Part shown: positions 51,387 to 59,191 of the stretch, piece by piece
Layout: each line of letters starts with the position of its first letter
Position numbering within the stretch: position 1 is the first letter of the stretch
Source: Enterobacter asburiae
GTDB taxonomy: Bacteria > Pseudomonadota > Gammaproteobacteria > Enterobacterales > Enterobacteriaceae
Assembly: GCA_011754535.1 (NCBI GenBank)
Contig: JAAQVN010000001.1
Span: 2,356,001 to 2,420,000, forward strand
Direction: 5' to 3'
DNA length: 64,000 nucleotides
Made by a program: the position numbers and the translations under genes
The notes under the pieces: model-generated
What the model was told of the DNA's origin: nothing
Seen by the model: the letters and a program-made list of their open reading frames with translations, nothing else
Databases searched by the model: none

Positions 51387-52301
51387 ATGATCGTTCGTCC
51401 TAAACAGCACTGGCTACAACTGATTTTTGTCTGGCATGGTTCGGTACTTCCTAAAATCTATACCCGACTGCTGCTCAACTTCCTGCTTTCTATCGCCGTT
51501 ATTCTGATGCTGCCGTGGTATACCTCACTCGGCATCAAATTTACCGTGGCACCGTTTAGCATTCTCGGCGTGGCAATTGCTATCTTTCTGGGTTTCAGAA
51601 ACAACGCCTGTTATTCGCGCTACGTTGAGGCTCGCCTGCTCTGGGGGCAACTGATGATAGCGGCACGCTCGCTGTTTCGCGAGGTAAAAAACACCTTGCC
51701 TGACGATAAGCACCTGGGGGAGTTTGTCCGCCTGCAGATCGCCTTTGCCAACTGCCTGCGCATGACCCTGCGCCGGGATATGGATGCTGAGCAGCTCTCT
51801 CGCTATCTGGCTCCGGACGTTTTACATCAGGTAATGGGCGCCAACTCGCCGGCGAACCGTATTTTACTGATCATGGGGGAGTGGCTGGCCGTACGGCGGC
51901 GTAACGGGCTACTCTCAGACATCCTGTTCCACAGCCTGAACAACCGTCTGAACGATATGTCCATCGTCCTTTCCGGGTGCGAGCGCATTGCGACAACGCC
52001 AGTGCCGTTTGCCTATACGCTGATTTTGCACCGCACGGTGTATCTCTTCTGCATCATGCTGCCGTTCGCGCTGGTTGTGGACTTGCACTACATGACGCCG
52101 TTTGTGTCGGCGCTGATCTCCTACACCTTTATCTCGCTGGATACCCTGGCAGAAGAGCTGGAAGACCCGTTTGGCACAGAAGATAACGACCTGCCGCTGG
52201 ACGCCATCTGTAACATGATGGAACGCGATCTGCTGCAGATGAACGATGAAGAGAACATTCCGGAAAGGCTGATGCCGGATAAGCACTATCAGCTGACCTG
52301 A
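51387..52301 (+). CDS. yneE: YneE, bestrophin-like channel protein
   Basis: 304-residue inner-membrane protein of the bestrophin/UPF0187 family, close to E. coli YneE (LLLNFLLSIAVILMLPWYTSLGIKFT, GFRNNACYSRYVEARLLWGQLM, EELEDPFGTEDNDLPLDAICNMME). Bacterial bestrophins form pentameric cation-selective channels; the role here is unproven. Overlaps a convergent GNAT gene by 13 bp. Confidence 0.92.
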   Translation: MIVRPKQHWLQLIFVWHGSVLPKIYTRLLLNFLLSIAVILMLPWYTSLGIKFTVAPFSILGVAIAIFLGFRNNACYSRYVEARLLWGQLMIAARSLFREVKNTLPDDKHLGEFVRLQIAFANCLRMTLRRDMDAEQLSRYLAPDVLHQVMGANSPANRILLIMGEWLAVRRRNGLLSDILFHSLNNRLNDMSIVLSGCERIATTPVPFAYTLILHRTVYLFCIMLPFALVVDLHYMTPFVSALISYTFISLDTLAEELEDPFGTEDNDLPLDAICNMMERDLLQMNDEENIPERLMPDKHYQLT

Positions 52302-52837
52302 CGGGCGTTCCACTCGTCGCGGGTGATCTCCCACAGTTCGGAGTCCAGCATCCCGCTGACGTAGGCTTTCTTTTCCGTTCTGATAAGCCGCATGCCGCTG
52401 CTGTCTGAAATACGACGGGAGCGGCTGTTCGCGGCGGCCTTCGGCGCCCGCAAAACGGGTTTGTTCAGCGTATTAAACCAGTAATCCGTCGCCGCAATGC
52501 TGGCCTCACGCATATACCCCTGTCCCTGAAACTCCGGCGCCAGCCAGAATCCGCGGTTATTATCGTCAACGTCGTACAGGCAGATAATCCCCATCAACTC
52601 ATCCGGCACCTCGCGACGGCGGATGCTCCAGAACCAGGCAATCCCTTTTGCCATATCCGGCAGCGCGACGTTGTTGACATAATTTTCCGCGCCGTTATCC
52701 GGGTAGGGCCAGGGCACTGTAGAGACCATATAGCGGACAATCTCCCAACGCGGATACAGCTTTTGAATCTGAACCGCATCTTCGGCAACCAGCGGTTTCA
52801 GCAGGAGACGTTCTGTCGTGAGTGTCGGTATCGTCAT
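52289..52837 (-). CDS. RimJ/RimL-type GNAT acetyltransferase
   Basis: 182 residues starting MTIPTLTTERLLLKPLVAEDA, the RimJ/RimL-family opening. GFWLAPEFQGQGYMREA is the acetyl-CoA-binding loop. The substrate could be a protein N-terminus or small molecule. Divergent from another GNAT gene. First gene of the accessory block between yneE and tam. Confidence 0.85.
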   Translation of the reverse strand: MTIPTLTTERLLLKPLVAEDAVQIQKLYPRWEIVRYMVSTVPWPYPDNGAENYVNNVALPDMAKGIAWFWSIRRREVPDELMGIICLYDVDDNNRGFWLAPEFQGQGYMREASIAATDYWFNTLNKPVLRAPKAAANSRSRRISDSSGMRLIRTEKKAYVSGMLDSELWEITRDEWNARQVS

Positions 52838-52955
52838 CTGCGGATCTCCATATTTAAGCGTTATGTTTTTGTTTGCGTTCTGGTATTTTCACCTTAGCAG
52901 CACTCTATCCCAGGGAGAGCCCTTTCCCATACTACTAACAATTGCAGAGGTCAGC

Positions 52956-53426
52956 ATGGTATTAAGACGGGCCAACTCCCAGGAAGCCGAAATACTCTGG
53001 AATATACGCAATCAGGCGATTCGTCACGGCTGCAAAACCAGCTACGACGCTGACGTGATTGCACGCTGGACGCCGGATCTGATGCCCGAGCATTACCGTC
53101 AAACGATCATTCAATACCCTTTTTACGTGGTGGAAGACGAGAAGGGCGTCATTGCGGCAACCGGCTACCTGGATCTTGATACCCATTGCCTGGAGGCCAT
53201 ATTCACCTTTCCCTCAGCCACCGGGAGAGGCATGGCGACCCGGATTATCAAGGCGCTTACAAACGAGGCGCGCAGTCGGGGAATCACCCGCCTGAGGCTT
53301 GATGCAACGCCTAACGCCCAGTCCTTTTATCAGAAACTGGGGTTTGTGACGCTGCGCGAAAACTATCATCACTCGCGTATGGCGGGGGCTGATTTACGCT
53401 GTTTTGAAATGGCAATCGACTTGTAA
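52956..53426 (+). CDS. GNAT-family N-acetyltransferase
   Basis: 156 residues. AIFTFPSATGRGMATRIIKALTNEA is the acetyl-CoA loop and AQSFYQKLGFVTLRE the C-terminal block. The ATG at 52956 behind GAGG was chosen; the 46-codon upstream frame is hydrophobic and unlike the family. Followed 12 bp later by a second GNAT gene, likely one transcript. Confidence 0.83.
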   Translation: MVLRRANSQEAEILWNIRNQAIRHGCKTSYDADVIARWTPDLMPEHYRQTIIQYPFYVVEDEKGVIAATGYLDLDTHCLEAIFTFPSATGRGMATRIIKALTNEARSRGITRLRLDATPNAQSFYQKLGFVTLRENYHHSRMAGADLRCFEMAIDL

Positions 53427-53438
53427 TGTGAGGAACGC

Positions 53439-53879
53439 ATGGCTGTCACGGTAAGACCTCTCCGCGAAGACGACTATTCCCAGTGGCGACCGCTGTGGGA
53501 TGGCTATACCCATTTTTATGATTGCTACCTTGACGAGCCCGTCACCGCATCGACATGGGAAAGGGCGCTCTCAGCGCATTCTCCGATGTTCTGCCGCGTG
53601 GTAGAGAAAGACGAAAAGGTCATCGGTTTCGCAATGTGTGTTCTTCACGAAGGAACCTGGTCAACCGTGCCCATTTGCTATCTGGAAGATCTGTTTGTTG
53701 ATGCCGACGAACGCGGCGCGGGAGCGGGTAAGGCGCTTATTGATGCCCTGATAGCGGAAGGCAAGCGTGAAGGGTGGTCAAAACTTTACTGGGTCACCCG
53801 GGAGAACAATCCGGCACGTAAACTCTACGATCGATACGGTGACGCTGACGATTACGTCCGCTATCGAATCTCTCTGTAA
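53439..53879 (+). CDS. GNAT-family N-acetyltransferase
   Basis: 146 residues. YLEDLFVDADERGAGAGKALIDALIAEG carries the acetyl-CoA motif and LYWVTRENNPARKLYDRYGD the C-terminal one, as in diamine-acetyltransferase-like GNATs. Substrate unknown. Follows the previous gene by 12 bp, behind GAGG. Confidence 0.87.
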   Translation: MAVTVRPLREDDYSQWRPLWDGYTHFYDCYLDEPVTASTWERALSAHSPMFCRVVEKDEKVIGFAMCVLHEGTWSTVPICYLEDLFVDADERGAGAGKALIDALIAEGKREGWSKLYWVTRENNPARKLYDRYGDADDYVRYRISL

Positions 53880-53897
53880 GGCAACAGCGCCTGTGTT

Positions 53898-53966
53898 TGT
53901 ATCACACTGTATCTGCATACCGGATACATACGCAGGCTTGCAATAAACCCGCTTTCGCACATATCC
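53898..53966 (+). promoter_or_regulatory. Two-block control region of the hydrolase-TCS operon
   Basis: TGTATC occurs at 53898 and again 10 bp later at 53908. The second copy reads TGTATCTGC and forms an inverted repeat with GATACA at 53923-53928 (N9). Block two, CGCTTTCGCACATATCC, is at 53950-53966, exactly 42 bp from the second TGTATC. The same blocks at the same spacing precede dipZ. Probable binding site of the encoded response regulator. Confidence 0.6.
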
Positions 53967-54024
53967 GCTATACATTGCAGTGTTGTTATATCCCCGTGAA
54001 TTGTACTCAACCGGAGATACCAAC

Positions 54025-55020
54025 ATGTTCAGCAAACTCGCTTATTCAACGCTTGCTCTCACCGTTTCCCTTGGCACCGTCATGTCATGTCAGGCCGAAG
54101 TCACCGGCACTAACTTCGCGGCGGCTTTCGATCGTCCACAGCAAATTAACGCAGGCGATCTTAACGTCGGGTATGTCGACATTGGTCCTAAAGACGGCCA
54201 ACCGGTTATTTTATTACACGGCTGGCCCTACGATATTCACAGCTACGCTGAAGTCGCGCCTGCGCTGGCGGCAAAAGGCTACCGCGTGATTGTACCTTCC
54301 CTGCGCGGCTACGGCACCACGCGCTTCCTGTCTGCAAAAACACCGCGCAACGGCCAGCCTTCCGCAATGGCGAAAGATATCGTGAACCTGATGGACGCCC
54401 TGAATATCAAGCAGGCGGTATTTGCAGGCTATGACTGGGGCGCCCGTACGGCGGATATCGTTGCGGCGCTGTGGCCAGAACGCGTTAAGTCGCTCGTTTC
54501 GGTGAGCGGTTATCTCATCAGCAGCCAGCAGATTGGCAAACAGCCGTTGCCGCCAAAAGCGGAGCAGCAGTGGTGGTATCAGTTCTATTTCGCCACCGAG
54601 CGTGGTGCTGAAGGCTATGCCAAAAACACCCATGACTTCGCTCGTCTGATCTGGTCTCAGGCCTCGCCTGACTGGAAATTTAGCGATGCAACCTTCAACG
54701 CCAGCGCCAAATCCCTTGATAACCCGGATCACGTTGCGGTGACGCTTAGCAATTATCGCTGGCGCTTAGGGCTGGAAAAAGGCGAGCGCAAATACGACAG
54801 CTACGAGCAAAAGCTGGCCACACTGCCGAATATCACCGTTCCAACGATCACCATCGAAGGCGGAAACAACGGGGCGCCGCATCCGGCACCGCAGGCCTAC
54901 GCGGGTAAATTTACCGGTAAATATGAACACCGTACCTTCGGCGCAACCGTGGGGCACAATCCCCCTCAGGAAGATCCGCAGGATTTCGTCAAGGCAGTTG
55001 TTGACGCTGACAAACTCTGA
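54025..55020 (+). CDS. Secreted alpha/beta hydrolase, epoxide-hydrolase/haloalkane-dehalogenase type
   Basis: 331-residue exported hydrolase. The signal region is MFSKLAYSTLALTVSLGTVMSCQA. The SPase I site before EVTG fits best; a degenerate lipobox VMSC is also possible. The oxyanion motif is HGWP (about 65-68). The nucleophile is Asp137 in GYDWGA, and the base is His311 in VGHNPPQEDP. An Asp nucleophile indicates epoxide or haloalkane hydrolysis rather than esterase chemistry. The ATG at 54025 follows GGAG. The response regulator starts 44 bp downstream, so all three genes probably form an operon. Confidence 0.85.
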   Translation: MFSKLAYSTLALTVSLGTVMSCQAEVTGTNFAAAFDRPQQINAGDLNVGYVDIGPKDGQPVILLHGWPYDIHSYAEVAPALAAKGYRVIVPSLRGYGTTRFLSAKTPRNGQPSAMAKDIVNLMDALNIKQAVFAGYDWGARTADIVAALWPERVKSLVSVSGYLISSQQIGKQPLPPKAEQQWWYQFYFATERGAEGYAKNTHDFARLIWSQASPDWKFSDATFNASAKSLDNPDHVAVTLSNYRWRLGLEKGERKYDSYEQKLATLPNITVPTITIEGGNNGAPHPAPQAYAGKFTGKYEHRTFGATVGHNPPQEDPQDFVKAVVDADKL

Positions 55021-55064
55021 AATGTGCTATTTTCAATACGTTACCCTTCGGTCTGGAGATTTCG

Positions 55065-55805
55065 GTGGAGCATATTGATCATATCCTTGTCGTCGATGAC
55101 GACAGGGATATTCGTGAATTGATTATCGACTATCTCGTTAAGTCCGGTTATCGCGCCACTGGCGCGGCAAACGGCAAAGAGATGCGCGTCGTGCTGGATA
55201 AGCAGCATATCGACCTGGTGGTGCTGGACGTTATGATGCCCGGCGACGACGGGCTTACGCTGTGTCGGCAATTACGCGTCGGGAAATATAAAGATCTGCC
55301 CATCCTGATGCTGACGGCGCGCAATGAGGAGACGGACAGGATCCTGGGCCTGGAAATGGGAGCAGACGATTACGTCGTAAAGCCTTTCGTCGCACGAGAA
55401 TTGCTGGCGCGTATCAAAGCGATTTTACGTCGTTTTCGCACGATGCCGCCCAATTTACAGGTCACGGAAGCAGGGCGGTTGGTGACGTTCGGTGAATGGC
55501 AGCTCGATACCGTTGCCCGCCACCTGATTGACCCGGAAGGGGTGATCGTGGCGCTCAGCGGGGCAGAATATCGCCTGCTGCGCGTTTTCCTTGACCACCC
55601 GCAGCGGGTGCTGACCCGCGATCAGCTGCTCAACCTGACTCAGGGGCGTGACGCCGAACTGTTTGAACGCTCAATCGATCTACTGGTTAGCCGGGTTCGC
55701 CAGCGTCTGAATGAAGATGCCCGCACGCCCGCGTATATCAAAACCGTGCGCAGCGAGGGCTACGTTTTTACCATGCCGGTCACTATCAAAGAGGCTAACG
55801 AATGA
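55065..55805 (+). CDS. OmpR-family response regulator
   Basis: 246 residues. The receiver domain (about 6-120) has acidic Asp11-Asp13, phosphoacceptor Asp55 in LVVLDVMMPG and Lys106 in VVKPF. The C-terminal winged helix covers about 145-240 (LSGAEYRLLRVFLDHPQRVLTRDQLL, RSIDLLVSRVRQRL). The start is GTG at 55065 behind GGAG. Overlaps its sensor kinase gene by four bases. Its likely targets are the flanking hydrolase and dipZ, which share promoter blocks. Confidence 0.9.
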   Translation: MEHIDHILVVDDDRDIRELIIDYLVKSGYRATGAANGKEMRVVLDKQHIDLVVLDVMMPGDDGLTLCRQLRVGKYKDLPILMLTARNEETDRILGLEMGADDYVVKPFVARELLARIKAILRRFRTMPPNLQVTEAGRLVTFGEWQLDTVARHLIDPEGVIVALSGAEYRLLRVFLDHPQRVLTRDQLLNLTQGRDAELFERSIDLLVSRVRQRLNEDARTPAYIKTVRSEGYVFTMPVTIKEANE

Positions 55806-57100
55806 CGCTCTGGCCCCGCTCGCTGCTGGCCCGCTTGCTGATCGTCGTGCTGCCCGGACTGTTGCTGGCCAACGCCCTGAGTCTGACGCTGGTCATGATT
55901 GAGCGAATGCACAGCGCCCGAACGGTGATGCTCGGTAATCTGGAATACGATGTCGCGACCAGCGTGGCTATTTTAGACCGCTTACCCGCCAATGAACGCG
56001 CGGCCTGGCTGCCGCGACTTGAACGCGGTAACTACCGCTATATTCTGGGGCCGGGAGAACCCGGCAACGCGCCGACGGATAAGCGTTCGCGGGACGCCAT
56101 CCGAACCTTAAAAGCGACGCTTGCGGCACGGTATCCGCTCAGCTTCACTGCCGTTCCCGGCGCCATTTCACACATCCAGGCGCATCTCACGTTACGCGAT
56201 GGCGCGCCGCTGACCATCGATCTGATCCCACGGATGCCGCCGGTCGCCAGTTGGCTGCCCGTGGTTCTGATTCTGCAGCTGCTCGTGCTGGCTGCCTGCT
56301 CCTGGATCGCCGTGCGGCAGGTGGTACGGCCTTTTTCGCAATTTACCCGCGCGGTAGATTCCCTGGACCCGGCCGCCAACACGACAATGACGGAAAAGGG
56401 GCCGGTTGAGGTGCAGCGTGCAGCGCATGCCTTCAACGCGATGCAGGCGCGAATTCAGTCCTATCTCAGGGAGCGGGCGCAGATCCTGGCGTCCATTTCG
56501 CACGATCTCCAGACGCCCATTACCCGCATGAAGCTTCGTGTTGAGATGGCCGAACAGCCTGAACTGCGCGACAAGCTTTTAAACGACCTTGATAATATGA
56601 CGCGTCTGGTGCGGGAGGGTATTGCGTATGCCCGGTCATCAGAATTGCTGGAAGAAACCTCGCTGAAGCTTGAGCTGAATGCCTGGATAAACAGCATCGC
56701 CTGCGATTATCAGGACATCGGTAAAAACGTGCAGTTTCAGGCAGGTGAAACCCGTTTGCCCATCGTCACGCGTCCTCAGGCGCTTCGCCGGGTGATGACC
56801 AATCTGTTGGATAACGCCCTGAAATTTGGCGAGTACGCCACCATTAGCATTGATGACTCGACTACCGGAGAGGTGACCATTCACATCATGGACGGCGGGC
56901 CGGGTATACCGGATGCCGAACTGGAGGCAGTTTTACAGCCGTTTTATCGTGTGGAAACATCACGCAACCGCGATACCGGCGGGACAGGCCTTGGCCTGGC
57001 GATCGCTGCGCAGCTCACCGCACAGCTGGACGGAAAGCTGAAGCTGGCAAACCGCGCAGAGGGCGGGCTGGACGTCTCAATTACACTCCCGTGCCGTTAA
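55802..57100 (+). CDS. Sensor histidine kinase
   Basis: 432-residue inner-membrane kinase. TM1 is at about 8-32, a periplasmic sensor domain of about 115 residues follows, TM2 is at about 150-171, then HAMP. The H-box is SISHDLQTPITRM with His234; the N-box is MTNLLDNALKFGE, G1 is DGGPGIPD and G2 is GGTGLGLAIA. The signal sensed is unknown. Partner of the preceding response regulator, translationally coupled (ATGA). Confidence 0.9.
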   Translation: MTLWPRSLLARLLIVVLPGLLLANALSLTLVMIERMHSARTVMLGNLEYDVATSVAILDRLPANERAAWLPRLERGNYRYILGPGEPGNAPTDKRSRDAIRTLKATLAARYPLSFTAVPGAISHIQAHLTLRDGAPLTIDLIPRMPPVASWLPVVLILQLLVLAACSWIAVRQVVRPFSQFTRAVDSLDPAANTTMTEKGPVEVQRAAHAFNAMQARIQSYLRERAQILASISHDLQTPITRMKLRVEMAEQPELRDKLLNDLDNMTRLVREGIAYARSSELLEETSLKLELNAWINSIACDYQDIGKNVQFQAGETRLPIVTRPQALRRVMTNLLDNALKFGEYATISIDDSTTGEVTIHIMDGGPGIPDAELEAVLQPFYRVETSRNRDTGGTGLGLAIAAQLTAQLDGKLKLANRAEGGLDVSITLPCR

Positions 57101-57111
57101 TTGTACGGCTT

Positions 57112-57170
57112 TGTATCTGCCGGAAAGGGCGATACAGAGCCAGACAAAAACCACGCTTTTACACATATCC
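57112..57170 (+). promoter_or_regulatory. Two-block control region of dipZ
   Basis: TGTATCTGC (from 57112) with GATACA at 57131-57136 (TGTATC-N13-GATACA), and CGCTTTTACACATATCC at 57154-57170. The two blocks are 42 bp apart, start to start, as in the hydrolase promoter. The second block differs from the other copy at only two of 17 bases. Confidence 0.6.
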
Positions 57171-57235
57171 TGAACACATCCGCACGATGAAATAACCTCA
57201 CTGCAGCGTCGCAGGACTTGTATTGTGAGGTGTTT

Positions 57236-58426
57236 ATGTTTCTGATAATTGCTTTTCTGGGCGGGATGATAAGCCTGCTCAGTCCATGTACGCTCCCGGT
57301 TATTCCACTCCTGTTCGCCGGTTTTCAGGGGCAGCGGCGGCACATTCTGGCGCTGCTCGCGGGGATGATCGTCATGTTCACCCTGGTGGCGATGGTGGTC
57401 ACCGTTGCCAGCGAGTGGATAACAGACGCAACTATCATCGGGCGCTGGATTGCGCTTATCGTTCTGGCCGCGGCCGCGCTGGCCTTAATTTTTCCTGCTT
57501 TTGCCCAGCGTATTGCCGGGCCGGCTGTCAGCGCGGGAAATGTCCTCAACGCGCGAAGCGGGCAAACGCGCGGTATGGCATCGGCATTTCTGGCCGGGCT
57601 TGCGGTCGGGCTGCTCTGGTCTCCCTGCGCGGGACCGATCCTGGGCGCCATTTTCAGCATCAATATTGCCGGACATTCGGCCATTGCCACAGGCGCTTTG
57701 CTGGCCGCCTATGGTAGCGGCTGCGCGCTGATGCTGGGTTTACTCGTTCTCGGAGGCCGCACGCTGATGGCGCCGCTGAAAGCCAAATCGTCGCTGATGG
57801 AAAAGCTACGTCAGGGGGCAGGCGTGGTAATGTTAGCGGCCGTCGTCTTTAACGCAACGGGGATGACGTCGGTTCTGCAGGGCGCGAACGGCGTCGCGGA
57901 TCGCCTTGAAACCACGCTGCTGAATCTGGCGAAACCCGCCACGCAGTCGCCGAAGCTTCAGCCGGTAGTGATGACCGAGCCCAGCAGCCAGCTGCCTTCA
58001 TTAAGCGGTGGGACAGGGTGGGTGAACGGTGACCCTGTCACGTCTGAATCCTTGCGCGGGAAAGTGGTTCTGATCGATTTCTGGACCTGGGACTGCATTA
58101 ACTGCCAGCATACGCTTCCGCACGTGCGCGACTGGGCAACAAAATACCAGTCTCAGGGCCTGGTCGTCATAGGAGTACACACGCCTGAATATCCCTGGGA
58201 GAAACCGATCGCCTCGGTGAAAAACGCGGTAAATAAATGGCAACTACCGTACCGGGTTGTAACGGACAACAACTATCAAATCTGGAACGCTTTCGGCAAC
58301 CAGTACTGGCCCGCGCACTACTATTTCGACGCAAAAGGCCAGCTGCGCTATACCGCCTTTGGTGAAGGTGATTATGAGCAGCAGGAAAAAGTTATTCAGC
58401 AGCTGCTCAAAGAGGCCCGTTCATAG
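57236..58426 (+). CDS. DipZ-like membrane thiol reductase (CcdA-type membrane domain fused to thioredoxin)
   Basis: 396 residues. The N-terminal CcdA/DsbD-like membrane domain (about 1-215, six helices) has the redox cysteines Cys18 (LLSPCTLPVIP) and Cys131 (WSPCAGPILGA). The C-terminal periplasmic TlpA/thioredoxin domain (about 255-396) has Cys287-Ile-Asn-Cys290. This architecture should pass electrons from cytoplasmic thioredoxin to periplasmic disulphides. Mycobacterial DipZ has a further C-terminal domain that is absent here. The ATG at 57236 follows GAGG by five bases. Confidence 0.88.
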   Translation: MFLIIAFLGGMISLLSPCTLPVIPLLFAGFQGQRRHILALLAGMIVMFTLVAMVVTVASEWITDATIIGRWIALIVLAAAALALIFPAFAQRIAGPAVSAGNVLNARSGQTRGMASAFLAGLAVGLLWSPCAGPILGAIFSINIAGHSAIATGALLAAYGSGCALMLGLLVLGGRTLMAPLKAKSSLMEKLRQGAGVVMLAAVVFNATGMTSVLQGANGVADRLETTLLNLAKPATQSPKLQPVVMTEPSSQLPSLSGGTGWVNGDPVTSESLRGKVVLIDFWTWDCINCQHTLPHVRDWATKYQSQGLVVIGVHTPEYPWEKPIASVKNAVNKWQLPYRVVTDNNYQIWNAFGNQYWPAHYYFDAKGQLRYTAFGEGDYEQQEKVIQQLLKEARS

Positions 58427-58432
58427 CCCCGT

Positions 58433-59191
58433 TCAGGGCTGACGCTGAGCCACAATAAACAGCCGCGGGAAAGCCAGCAGTATCTGCCCGTTTTCCTGGA
58501 GTGGATACTGCTCTTCCAGCAGTTCGTGATAGCGTTTCAGGAAACGTTTCTGCTCGCTCTCGTTCAGATCCTGGAGCCACGGCCGCAAACCGGTGGCGCT
58601 GACCCAGTCAATAATGGCCTGGTGCGAGCTCATTTTATGGAAATAGGTTGTCCGCCAGATATCCACATCGCAGCCGGCCTCCGACAAGATATCGTAATAG
58701 GCATGTACGCCTGGCAGAGGCTCGCGACCGCGGTCAGGATAGTCCTGCTCCAGCGCCACTTCGCGCATCGCTACGTGAGTGGGCTCGAGCCAGTTGTCAG
58801 GCATCTGGATCGCCAGTACGCCATTTAGCGCGAGCAGAGAGACAAGATGAGGCAGAAGATCGTAATGGTCAGGAACCCATTGCAGCGAAGCATTGGCATA
58901 AATCAGACTCAGCGGCTGGCCAGGCTTGTACTGGCGGATATCGGCCTCAACGAACTGGCAGCCGGGCAGTGCACTGCGCGCCTCTTCCAGCATGGCTGGT
59001 GAGTTATCGACGCCGACGATCTGAGCTTTCGGCCAGCGATGGTGCAGCAGCGCCGTGCTATTGCCCGGCCCGCAGCCCAGATCGGCGATGGTGGCGACGT
59101 CATCGAGGGGAATTCTGGCAAGCAGCTCAGCGGCGGGGCGCGTTCGTTCGGCGCCATATTGCAGGTAAAGCGAAGGGTTCCAGTCAGCCAT
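58433..59191 (-). CDS. tam: Trans-aconitate 2-methyltransferase Tam
   Basis: SAM-dependent methyltransferase of 252 residues that methylates trans-aconitate, a spontaneous by-product of cis-aconitate that inhibits aconitase. Nearly identical in pattern to E. coli Tam: [25 protein letters not shown] (SAM site), [15 protein letters not shown] and [12 protein letters not shown]. In E. coli it neighbours yneE; here about 6 kb of accessory genes intervene. Confidence 0.95.

Follow-up and report, generated by a model that had tools for sequence, protein, structure and literature searches.

What does a two-component system govern when its genes lie between those for an exported hydrolase and a thiol reductase, and against what would such a set of proteins act? 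The question is raised by a 64,000-nucleotide stretch of Enterobacter asburiae DNA (GCA_011754535.1, contig JAAQVN010000001.1, positions 2,356,001 to 2,420,000; hereafter the window, whose first letter is position 1), in which four genes on the plus strand encode, in this order, an alpha/beta hydrolase, an OmpR-family response regulator, a sensor histidine kinase and a DipZ-type protein (Table 1). A sequence-only reading of the window had described the hydrolase and dipZ genes as flanking a regulator/kinase pair, and open reading frames and Pfam domains bear out this gene order. The explanation that we consider best overall, with a probability of roughly 0.6, is that the cluster would represent an uncharacterised OmpR-type envelope-defence system with a small regulon. 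Comparison of promoters and genomes strongly supports the view that one regulator would act on this regulon through a shared promoter array, and the products other than the regulator are predicted envelope proteins.

The array was approached through two blocks to which the sequence-only reading had drawn attention, TGTATCTGC (at 53908 and 57112) and CGCTTTYRCACATATCC (at 53950 and 57154), which were said to start exactly 42 bp apart in both the hydrolase and the dipZ promoter. A pattern scan of the window confirmed this offset, and the joint two-block pattern with up to three mismatches was found twice in the window and in none of 100 shuffles, a result that addresses specificity only because the pattern was derived from these sites. 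The blocks themselves had to be redrawn. TGTATCTGC is present in both window promoters, but its final TGC is not kept across promoters (by our own reading of the promoters with a box, four of the 20 distinct hydrolase promoters have the full block, as do two of the 20 distinct dipZ promoters), and it was ruled out as the motif; the conserved core is the direct repeat TTGTATCnnnnTGTATC, the first of three modules that stand in fixed register at the hydrolase, dipZ and a third operon. GATACA (53923 and 57131), taken earlier for the inverted partner of the first block, does follow it in both promoters but is really half of a second, inverted site, and a single operator of the form TGTATCTGC-N18-GATACA had no match in the own genome and a spacing that fits neither promoter. 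The second block is real and lies at its fixed offset, but what it covers is the third site of the array.

The first module was searched for as a box, TGTA-N6-TGTAT, within 230 bp of the gene in 36 mapped Enterobacterales loci (labels beginning with G, C and L are our handles for genomes, contigs and loci). It was found in front of the hydrolase gene in 21 of the 36 loci (20 distinct promoters) and in front of dipZ in 21 of 26 (again 20 distinct), being missed in 15 and 5 cases, respectively. Nine of the 15 missed hydrolase boxes lie farther upstream, either before a DUF6130 gene (L033, where this gene was recognised by eye only, L113, L118, L119 and L122) or just past 230 bp (L031, L107, L108 and L109), and three further loci (L112, L123 and L126) have an inverted box. 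When promoters were aligned on the first box, TTGTATCacacTGTATC occupied offsets 0-16; the inverted site came next, its ATAC near 31-34 and its CAA at 44-46, and the last site showed YACA both near 61-64 and near 74-77. The layout thus opens with a direct repeat in forward orientation, which is followed after about 30 bp by an inverted repeat and, about 60 bp from the start, by a third site beside a likely -10. This -10 would lie near offset 89-94, and the third site would thus overlap the -35. Of 56 promoters picked because they contain the first box, 54 are distinct, and 43 of these 54 carry CAA at offset 44, compared with a mean of 0.65 at other offsets. Promoters of one gene in sister species are related; shared descent of a single promoter does not explain the register, however, because the promoters belong to different genes (hydrolase, dipZ, DUF6130 and a rhizobial hydrolase).

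The distribution of the genes was determined in a family sample of 295 genomes using cut-offs of E ≤ 1e-60 for the hydrolase and E ≤ 1e-95 for the regulator. The hydrolase was found in 24 and the regulator in 23 genomes, 22 of them in common, with one genome having the regulator without the hydrolase (G086) and two the hydrolase without the regulator (G141 and G163, the latter a fragment). The locus of this fragment (L126) seems to be decaying; a genome of the same genus, G017, holds the full set. The sequence-only reading had proposed a genome search for the four genes and their motifs, and such a search recovered the full order hydrolase-regulator-kinase-dipZ in 26 of the 36 Enterobacterales loci (some with intervening genes) and an array register that is kept across genera, but the exact TGTATCTGC block in few promoters. 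The other ten loci lack dipZ (L110, L111 and L119), are reordered (L123), run into the end of a contig (L033) or hold no gene of the set but the hydrolase (L122 and L124-L127).

Exact matches to TGTATCNNNNTGTATC were then counted in 35 genomes of our choosing, namely all 24 hydrolase-positive genomes and 11 listed without the hydrolase, which are related, such that the counts are not independent. The 35 genomes contained 30 matches, compared with one match of the backwards-pattern control. The sites were present in 19 of the 22 regulator-positive genomes (28 matches; none in G109, G169 and G253) and in 2 of the 13 regulator-negative ones with one match each, at the hydrolase fragment in G163 and elsewhere in G020. 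Of the matches in regulator-positive genomes 26 of 28 lie at hydrolase, dipZ or DUF6130 operon promoters (one inverted, in G017); inspection by eye revealed no other module at the matches G001:859800 and G162:1147473 and at that in G020, which were put down to chance. Boxes also stand beside the regulator gene where it lies apart from the hydrolase (L222-L225). That the array arose by chance or belongs to a dispersed repeat, and is no operator, has next to no probability left: with two mismatches allowed the motif is common in the own genome (49 matches vs. 24 backwards), a scan too noisy for finding targets and from which the two sites in the dipZ promoter were examined individually, whereas exact matches are rare and fall at the same promoters in many genera. 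The exact-match scan together with the CAA register therefore already contradicts such an origin. In Enterobacteriaceae the array is very probably the operator of the encoded regulator, judging from these co-occurrences, and the earlier proposal of a single activator, in the simplest case the encoded regulator, has good support, since the sites co-occur with the regulator in this family and led to a further target.

This further target lies 1.1 Mb from the locus. Two exact matches to TGTATCNNNNTGTATC exist in the own genome, one in the hydrolase promoter and one at C1:3532621, from which a DUF6130 gene lies about 130 bp downstream, followed by a gene for a second exported alpha/beta hydrolase. 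From a pattern longer by one base the latter site differs at one position, and so do three other sites in the own genome (C1:3408806 in L159, C1:504557 in L129 and C2:84040 in L132), which have no second or third module by eye and were not retained. The DUF6130 promoter carries all three modules with the spacing seen at hydrolase and dipZ, and the description of the regulon as self-contained was accordingly too narrow. In Pantoea agglomerans a single cluster unites DUF6130, hydrolase, regulator, kinase, hydrolase 2 and dipZ, and this synteny independently supports the DUF6130 operon as a target. DUF6130 was found in 8 of the 295 genomes, all of them regulator-positive (p of about 4e-10 if genomes were independent, a value made too small by kinship), and a box or near match lies upstream of it in 7 of the 8. 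The close dipZ class (at least 54% identity) likewise occurred in 19 genomes, every one of them regulator-positive; a distant class (45-48%), which is the sole class in 8 of 27 genomes, was not counted as orthologous. DUF6130, hydrolase 2 and a BhsA-like protein described below have signal-like N-terminal sequences, and a fold search with DUF6130 gave weak matches to immunoglobulin- or FN3-like domains, none at E < 0.001, which were not used.

Table 1. Genes and promoter modules of the four-gene cluster (window coordinates).
Feature	Position	Strand	Basis
Hydrolase promoter module 1, direct repeat TTGTATCACACTGTATC	53897..53913	+	only exact TTGTATCNNNNTGTATC in own genome; unit in 20 distinct boxed hydrolase promoters
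Hydrolase promoter module 2, inverted, GATACA ... TTGCAA	53923..53943	-	CAA register in aligned promoters
Hydrolase promoter module 3, inverted imperfect CACATATCC....TATACAT	53958..53975	-	aligned promoters; upstream of likely -10; overlaps second block of the sequence-only reading
Exported alpha/beta hydrolase, epoxide-hydrolase/dehalogenase type	54025..55020	+	Pfam PF00561; 5bov_A E=2.1e-167; signal-like N-termini in orthologues (by eye)
OmpR-family response regulator, GTG start	55065..55805	+	Response_reg + Trans_reg_C; in 23/295 family genomes
Sensor histidine kinase, RisS-like periplasmic domain, Cys166 in second transmembrane helix	55802..57100	+	HAMP, HisKA, HATPase_c; alignment; fold comparison
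dipZ promoter module 1 TTGTACGGCTTTGTATC	57101..57117	+	aligned promoters
dipZ promoter module 2, inverted, TTGTCTGGCTCTGTATC on minus strand	57131..57147	-	motif scan
dipZ promoter module 3 ACACATATCCTGAACACAT	57161..57179	-	aligned promoters
DipZ-type protein, DsbD/CcdA-like membrane domain fused to periplasmic thioredoxin-like domain (CINC)	57236..58426	+	Pfam DsbD_TM + AhpC-TSA/Redoxin; 2hyx E=1.9e-44

Outside Enterobacterales we considered 68 hydrolase loci (L037-L104, the rest of the best 80 of 596 matches), for each of which a stretch reaching at most about 6 kb to either side was retrieved. A box within 400 bp upstream of the hydrolase was found in 18 of the 68, many of them from Pseudomonas, where well under one would be expected by chance in all (estimated from nine fixed bases, not from shuffling). 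All three modules were recognised by eye at hydrolase promoters of Sinorhizobium meliloti and Phyllobacterium, which belong to a different class, Methylobacterium has a half-matching box before the regulator, and Neorhizobium has no box by this pattern. The boxes divide into 4 of the 10 loci with a related regulator in the retrieved stretch and 14 of the 58 loci without one. The latter favour a view in which the arrays are the sites of a different regulator, for example a further paralogue from the OmpR family, with the two-component system next to them no more than a neighbour; sites of the OmpR family can look alike. We regard this as very unlikely, given that the exact sites track the regulator gene in Enterobacteriaceae and that boxes adjoin the regulator even apart from the hydrolase, and the regulator may sit elsewhere in these 14 genomes. 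Four Pseudomonas loci (L063, L083, L097 and L104) have a regulator about 70% identical to that of the window and no matching kinase in the stretch, and others (L041, L049, L054, L058 and more) have a direct-repeat box of TGTATC with no regulator nearby.

Several observations, besides the kinship among genomes mentioned above, weigh against one regulator with a defensive regulon. The main gap in the one-regulator argument is the set of 14 boxed loci without a nearby regulator, and in the outside sample a related regulator (at least 50% identity) was found in 10 and a dipZ relative in 6 of the 68 retrieved stretches. Within Enterobacterales a box accompanies the hydrolase fragment of G163 where no regulator passes the cut-off, the hydrolases of L124, L125 and L127 have no box in the available stretch, the DUF6130 promoter of G011 has none, and G041 and G258 retain the operon without a close dipZ. 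As regards function, the RisS-like sensor domain leaves room for a pH or ligand signal, and the rhizobial Ohr, glyoxalase and DJ-1 genes introduced below are neighbours only, not shown targets.

By its domains the regulator/kinase pair is an OmpR-family two-component system, with a receiver and Trans_reg_C regulator beside a HAMP/HisKA/HATPase_c kinase; phosphotransfer and DNA binding are predicted. A cysteine in the second transmembrane helix (TM2) of the kinase is present in 37 of 38 aligned sequences, the remaining row ending before that column. Its codon in the window is at 56297-56299, and this single invariant TM2 cysteine is common to alpha- and gammaproteobacteria. In the DipZ-type protein DsbD_TM is joined to a periplasmic thioredoxin-like domain with a CxxC motif, as in CcdA-thioredoxin fusions, and at least 95% of 31 sequences share Cys18, 131, 287 and 290. 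In G041 and G258 the dipZ position is occupied by a gene for a FadH/OYE-like flavin oxidoreductase (L111 6107-8128), which was not counted as a target, there being no box in front of it in L111. In the hydrolase Asp137, His311, Tyr185 and Tyr244 are invariant in 16 of 16 aligned sequences, and they are candidates for the Asp nucleophile, the His and the two ring-opening cap Tyr of epoxide hydrolases. Inspection by eye, without a predictor, assigned Sec-type N-termini to the hydrolases of most Enterobacterales loci and twin-arginine N-termini to those of several others.

From these parts the following course of events can be proposed. The kinase would sense an envelope insult, and the phosphorylated regulator would fill the array, which would overlap a weak -35, and activate all three operons, raising its own level. 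DipZ would pass electrons from cytoplasmic thioredoxin to the periplasmic CINC motif, the exported hydrolases would open or hydrolyse a reactive small molecule (an epoxide, ester or halide), and DUF6130 would act in the envelope alongside them. The least certain step is the signal, which would be an oxidant or an electrophile and might be perceived through the conserved TM2 cysteine of the kinase.

Among the functional readings, defence against oxidants or electrophiles stands first, at about even odds. In G086, G169 and G253 the regulator gene stands away from the hydrolase gene or occurs without one, and next after the kinase gene comes a small gene of YdgH/BhsA type (seen in L223 5713-5994 and L224 3148-3429; L225 has the same spacing). 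In both of the former loci its promoter resembles the array, although the first box is imperfect. BhsA-family genes are strongly induced by chlorine and HOSCN according to the available parts of two reports (PMC4092069, PMC12096828). Neighbours of the rhizobial loci encode an Ohr/OsmC protein, DJ-1/PfpI, a glyoxalase and an EHN-type epoxide hydrolase; the OsmC/Ohr protein was also considered as an exported one, which found no support, its N-terminal extensions looking like start miscalls. The BhsA-like gene and these neighbours make defence against electrophiles or thiol damage plausible through indirect support. A bolder version, which we hold only tentatively, is that of a widespread and undescribed redox or electrophile sensing system, in which the TM2 cysteine would read damage and the regulator, by way of the three-site array found from rhizobia to enterobacteria, would launch a periplasmic clean-up by DipZ, exported epoxide or ester hydrolases, DUF6130 and, in some genera, the BhsA-like protein. 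The same regulator, array and regulon might instead serve catabolism or scavenging, the hydrolases processing an environmental ester, epoxide or halide while DipZ and DUF6130 aid handling or folding. Two exported alpha/beta hydrolases in one regulon would suit this purpose, as would the many hydrolase relatives from soil and plant bacteria and rhizobial plasmids among the matches listed and the position of the Klebsiella and S. meliloti loci near pqq genes; no transporter or further catabolic gene was seen to recur beside the cluster in the maps made, however, and a stress response is the better match for DipZ and the BhsA-like gene, so that we think a catabolic role unlikely. Equally improbable in our estimate is envelope stress by acid or misfolding, with the RisS-like domain sensing pH or a ligand and DipZ serving disulphide isomerisation or cytochrome c maturation. 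The RisS sensor domains 3lr3 and 3te8 are the top matches of the predicted periplasmic domain, at 12-16% identity and a Foldseek E > 0.01, so that any kinship would be tentative.

As to its genomic setting, the cluster occupies, together with three GNAT acetyltransferase genes (52289-53879), the interval between yneE (end at 52301) and tam (58433-59191, minus strand). In E. coli K-12 the tam-yneE gap measures 3 bp, and a megablast search of complete E. coli genomes, the only search made, returned no match for the 4.5-kb stretch; compared with E. coli, the block is therefore an insertion. The GNAT trio varies in presence among Enterobacter relatives and does not travel with the cluster, whose flanking genes vary between genera in the 36 Enterobacterales loci, and the start at 52289 given earlier was thus too early, taking in these three genes. 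Among the matches listed are an Enterobacter protein 91% identical to the kinase and an E. chuandaensis protein 98% identical to the hydrolase. The cluster lies near pqq genes in S. meliloti and Klebsiella (L162 1-1683 and L246 107-5601; also L115, L120 and L121) and elsewhere in other genera.

That no named system has this composition, as had been remarked from the sequence, agrees with our literature search, which covered open-licence full texts and found no paper on DUF6130, the motif, the 5bov locus tag or the S. meliloti tags; the available part of a Klebsiella disinfectant paper (PMC12809559) does not mention the system. An unnamed two-component system thus gains a defined operator and a predicted regulon together, and DUF6130 and a class of exported hydrolases are assigned to a common putative pathway. 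E. coli, in whose complete genomes the stretch has no megablast match, offers no direct model, and Cys166 and the promoter array provide handles on the way in which bacteria other than E. coli K-12 might sense oxidative or electrophile stress of the envelope.

Compared with known systems, the hydrolase is a close relative of the putative epoxide hydrolase 5bov, with which it has the alpha/beta fold in common and which alone was listed by a profile search at E ≤ 1e-20; Cif-like chains (7jqx) also match it. Cif is likewise exported and is regulated by a TetR-type repressor. The thioredoxin-like domain of M. tuberculosis DipZ (2hyx, 5cyy) matches that of the window protein, in both cases preceded by a DsbD/CcdA-like membrane domain; the M. 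tuberculosis protein also has a C-terminal Thioredoxin_10 domain, which is missing from the window protein and found in those of Bosea and Neorhizobium (L042 and L161), and the window gene, in contrast, stands under a two-component system. OmpR/EnvZ provide the closest curated models for the regulator and kinase, with a like gene order, an OmpR-type winged-helix DNA-binding domain in both regulators and, as in the window, an activated promoter preceded by several sites. The pair nevertheless stays below the curated NCBIfam cut-offs (245 of 331 bits for the regulator, 180 of 415 bits for the kinase), the regulator is 43% identical to E. coli OmpR over part of the latter, EnvZ has no cysteine in TM2 and the targets differ. 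HprSR (YedVW) of E. coli adjoins the periplasmic repair module msrPQ, which it induces under reactive chlorine according to the available parts of PMC13367049 and PMC9302797. Neither msrPQ nor hiuH lies beside the window locus, no box search of the own genome having been aimed at msrPQ itself, and the predicted targets are others than those of HprSR. HprS is only weakly alike (22% over the aligned C-terminal part), but it too has cysteines in the TM2 region (C165 and C172), at another place in the helix than that of the window kinase. The system of the window has no name that we found in open-licence full texts and would belong among the OmpR-type envelope-stress two-component systems.

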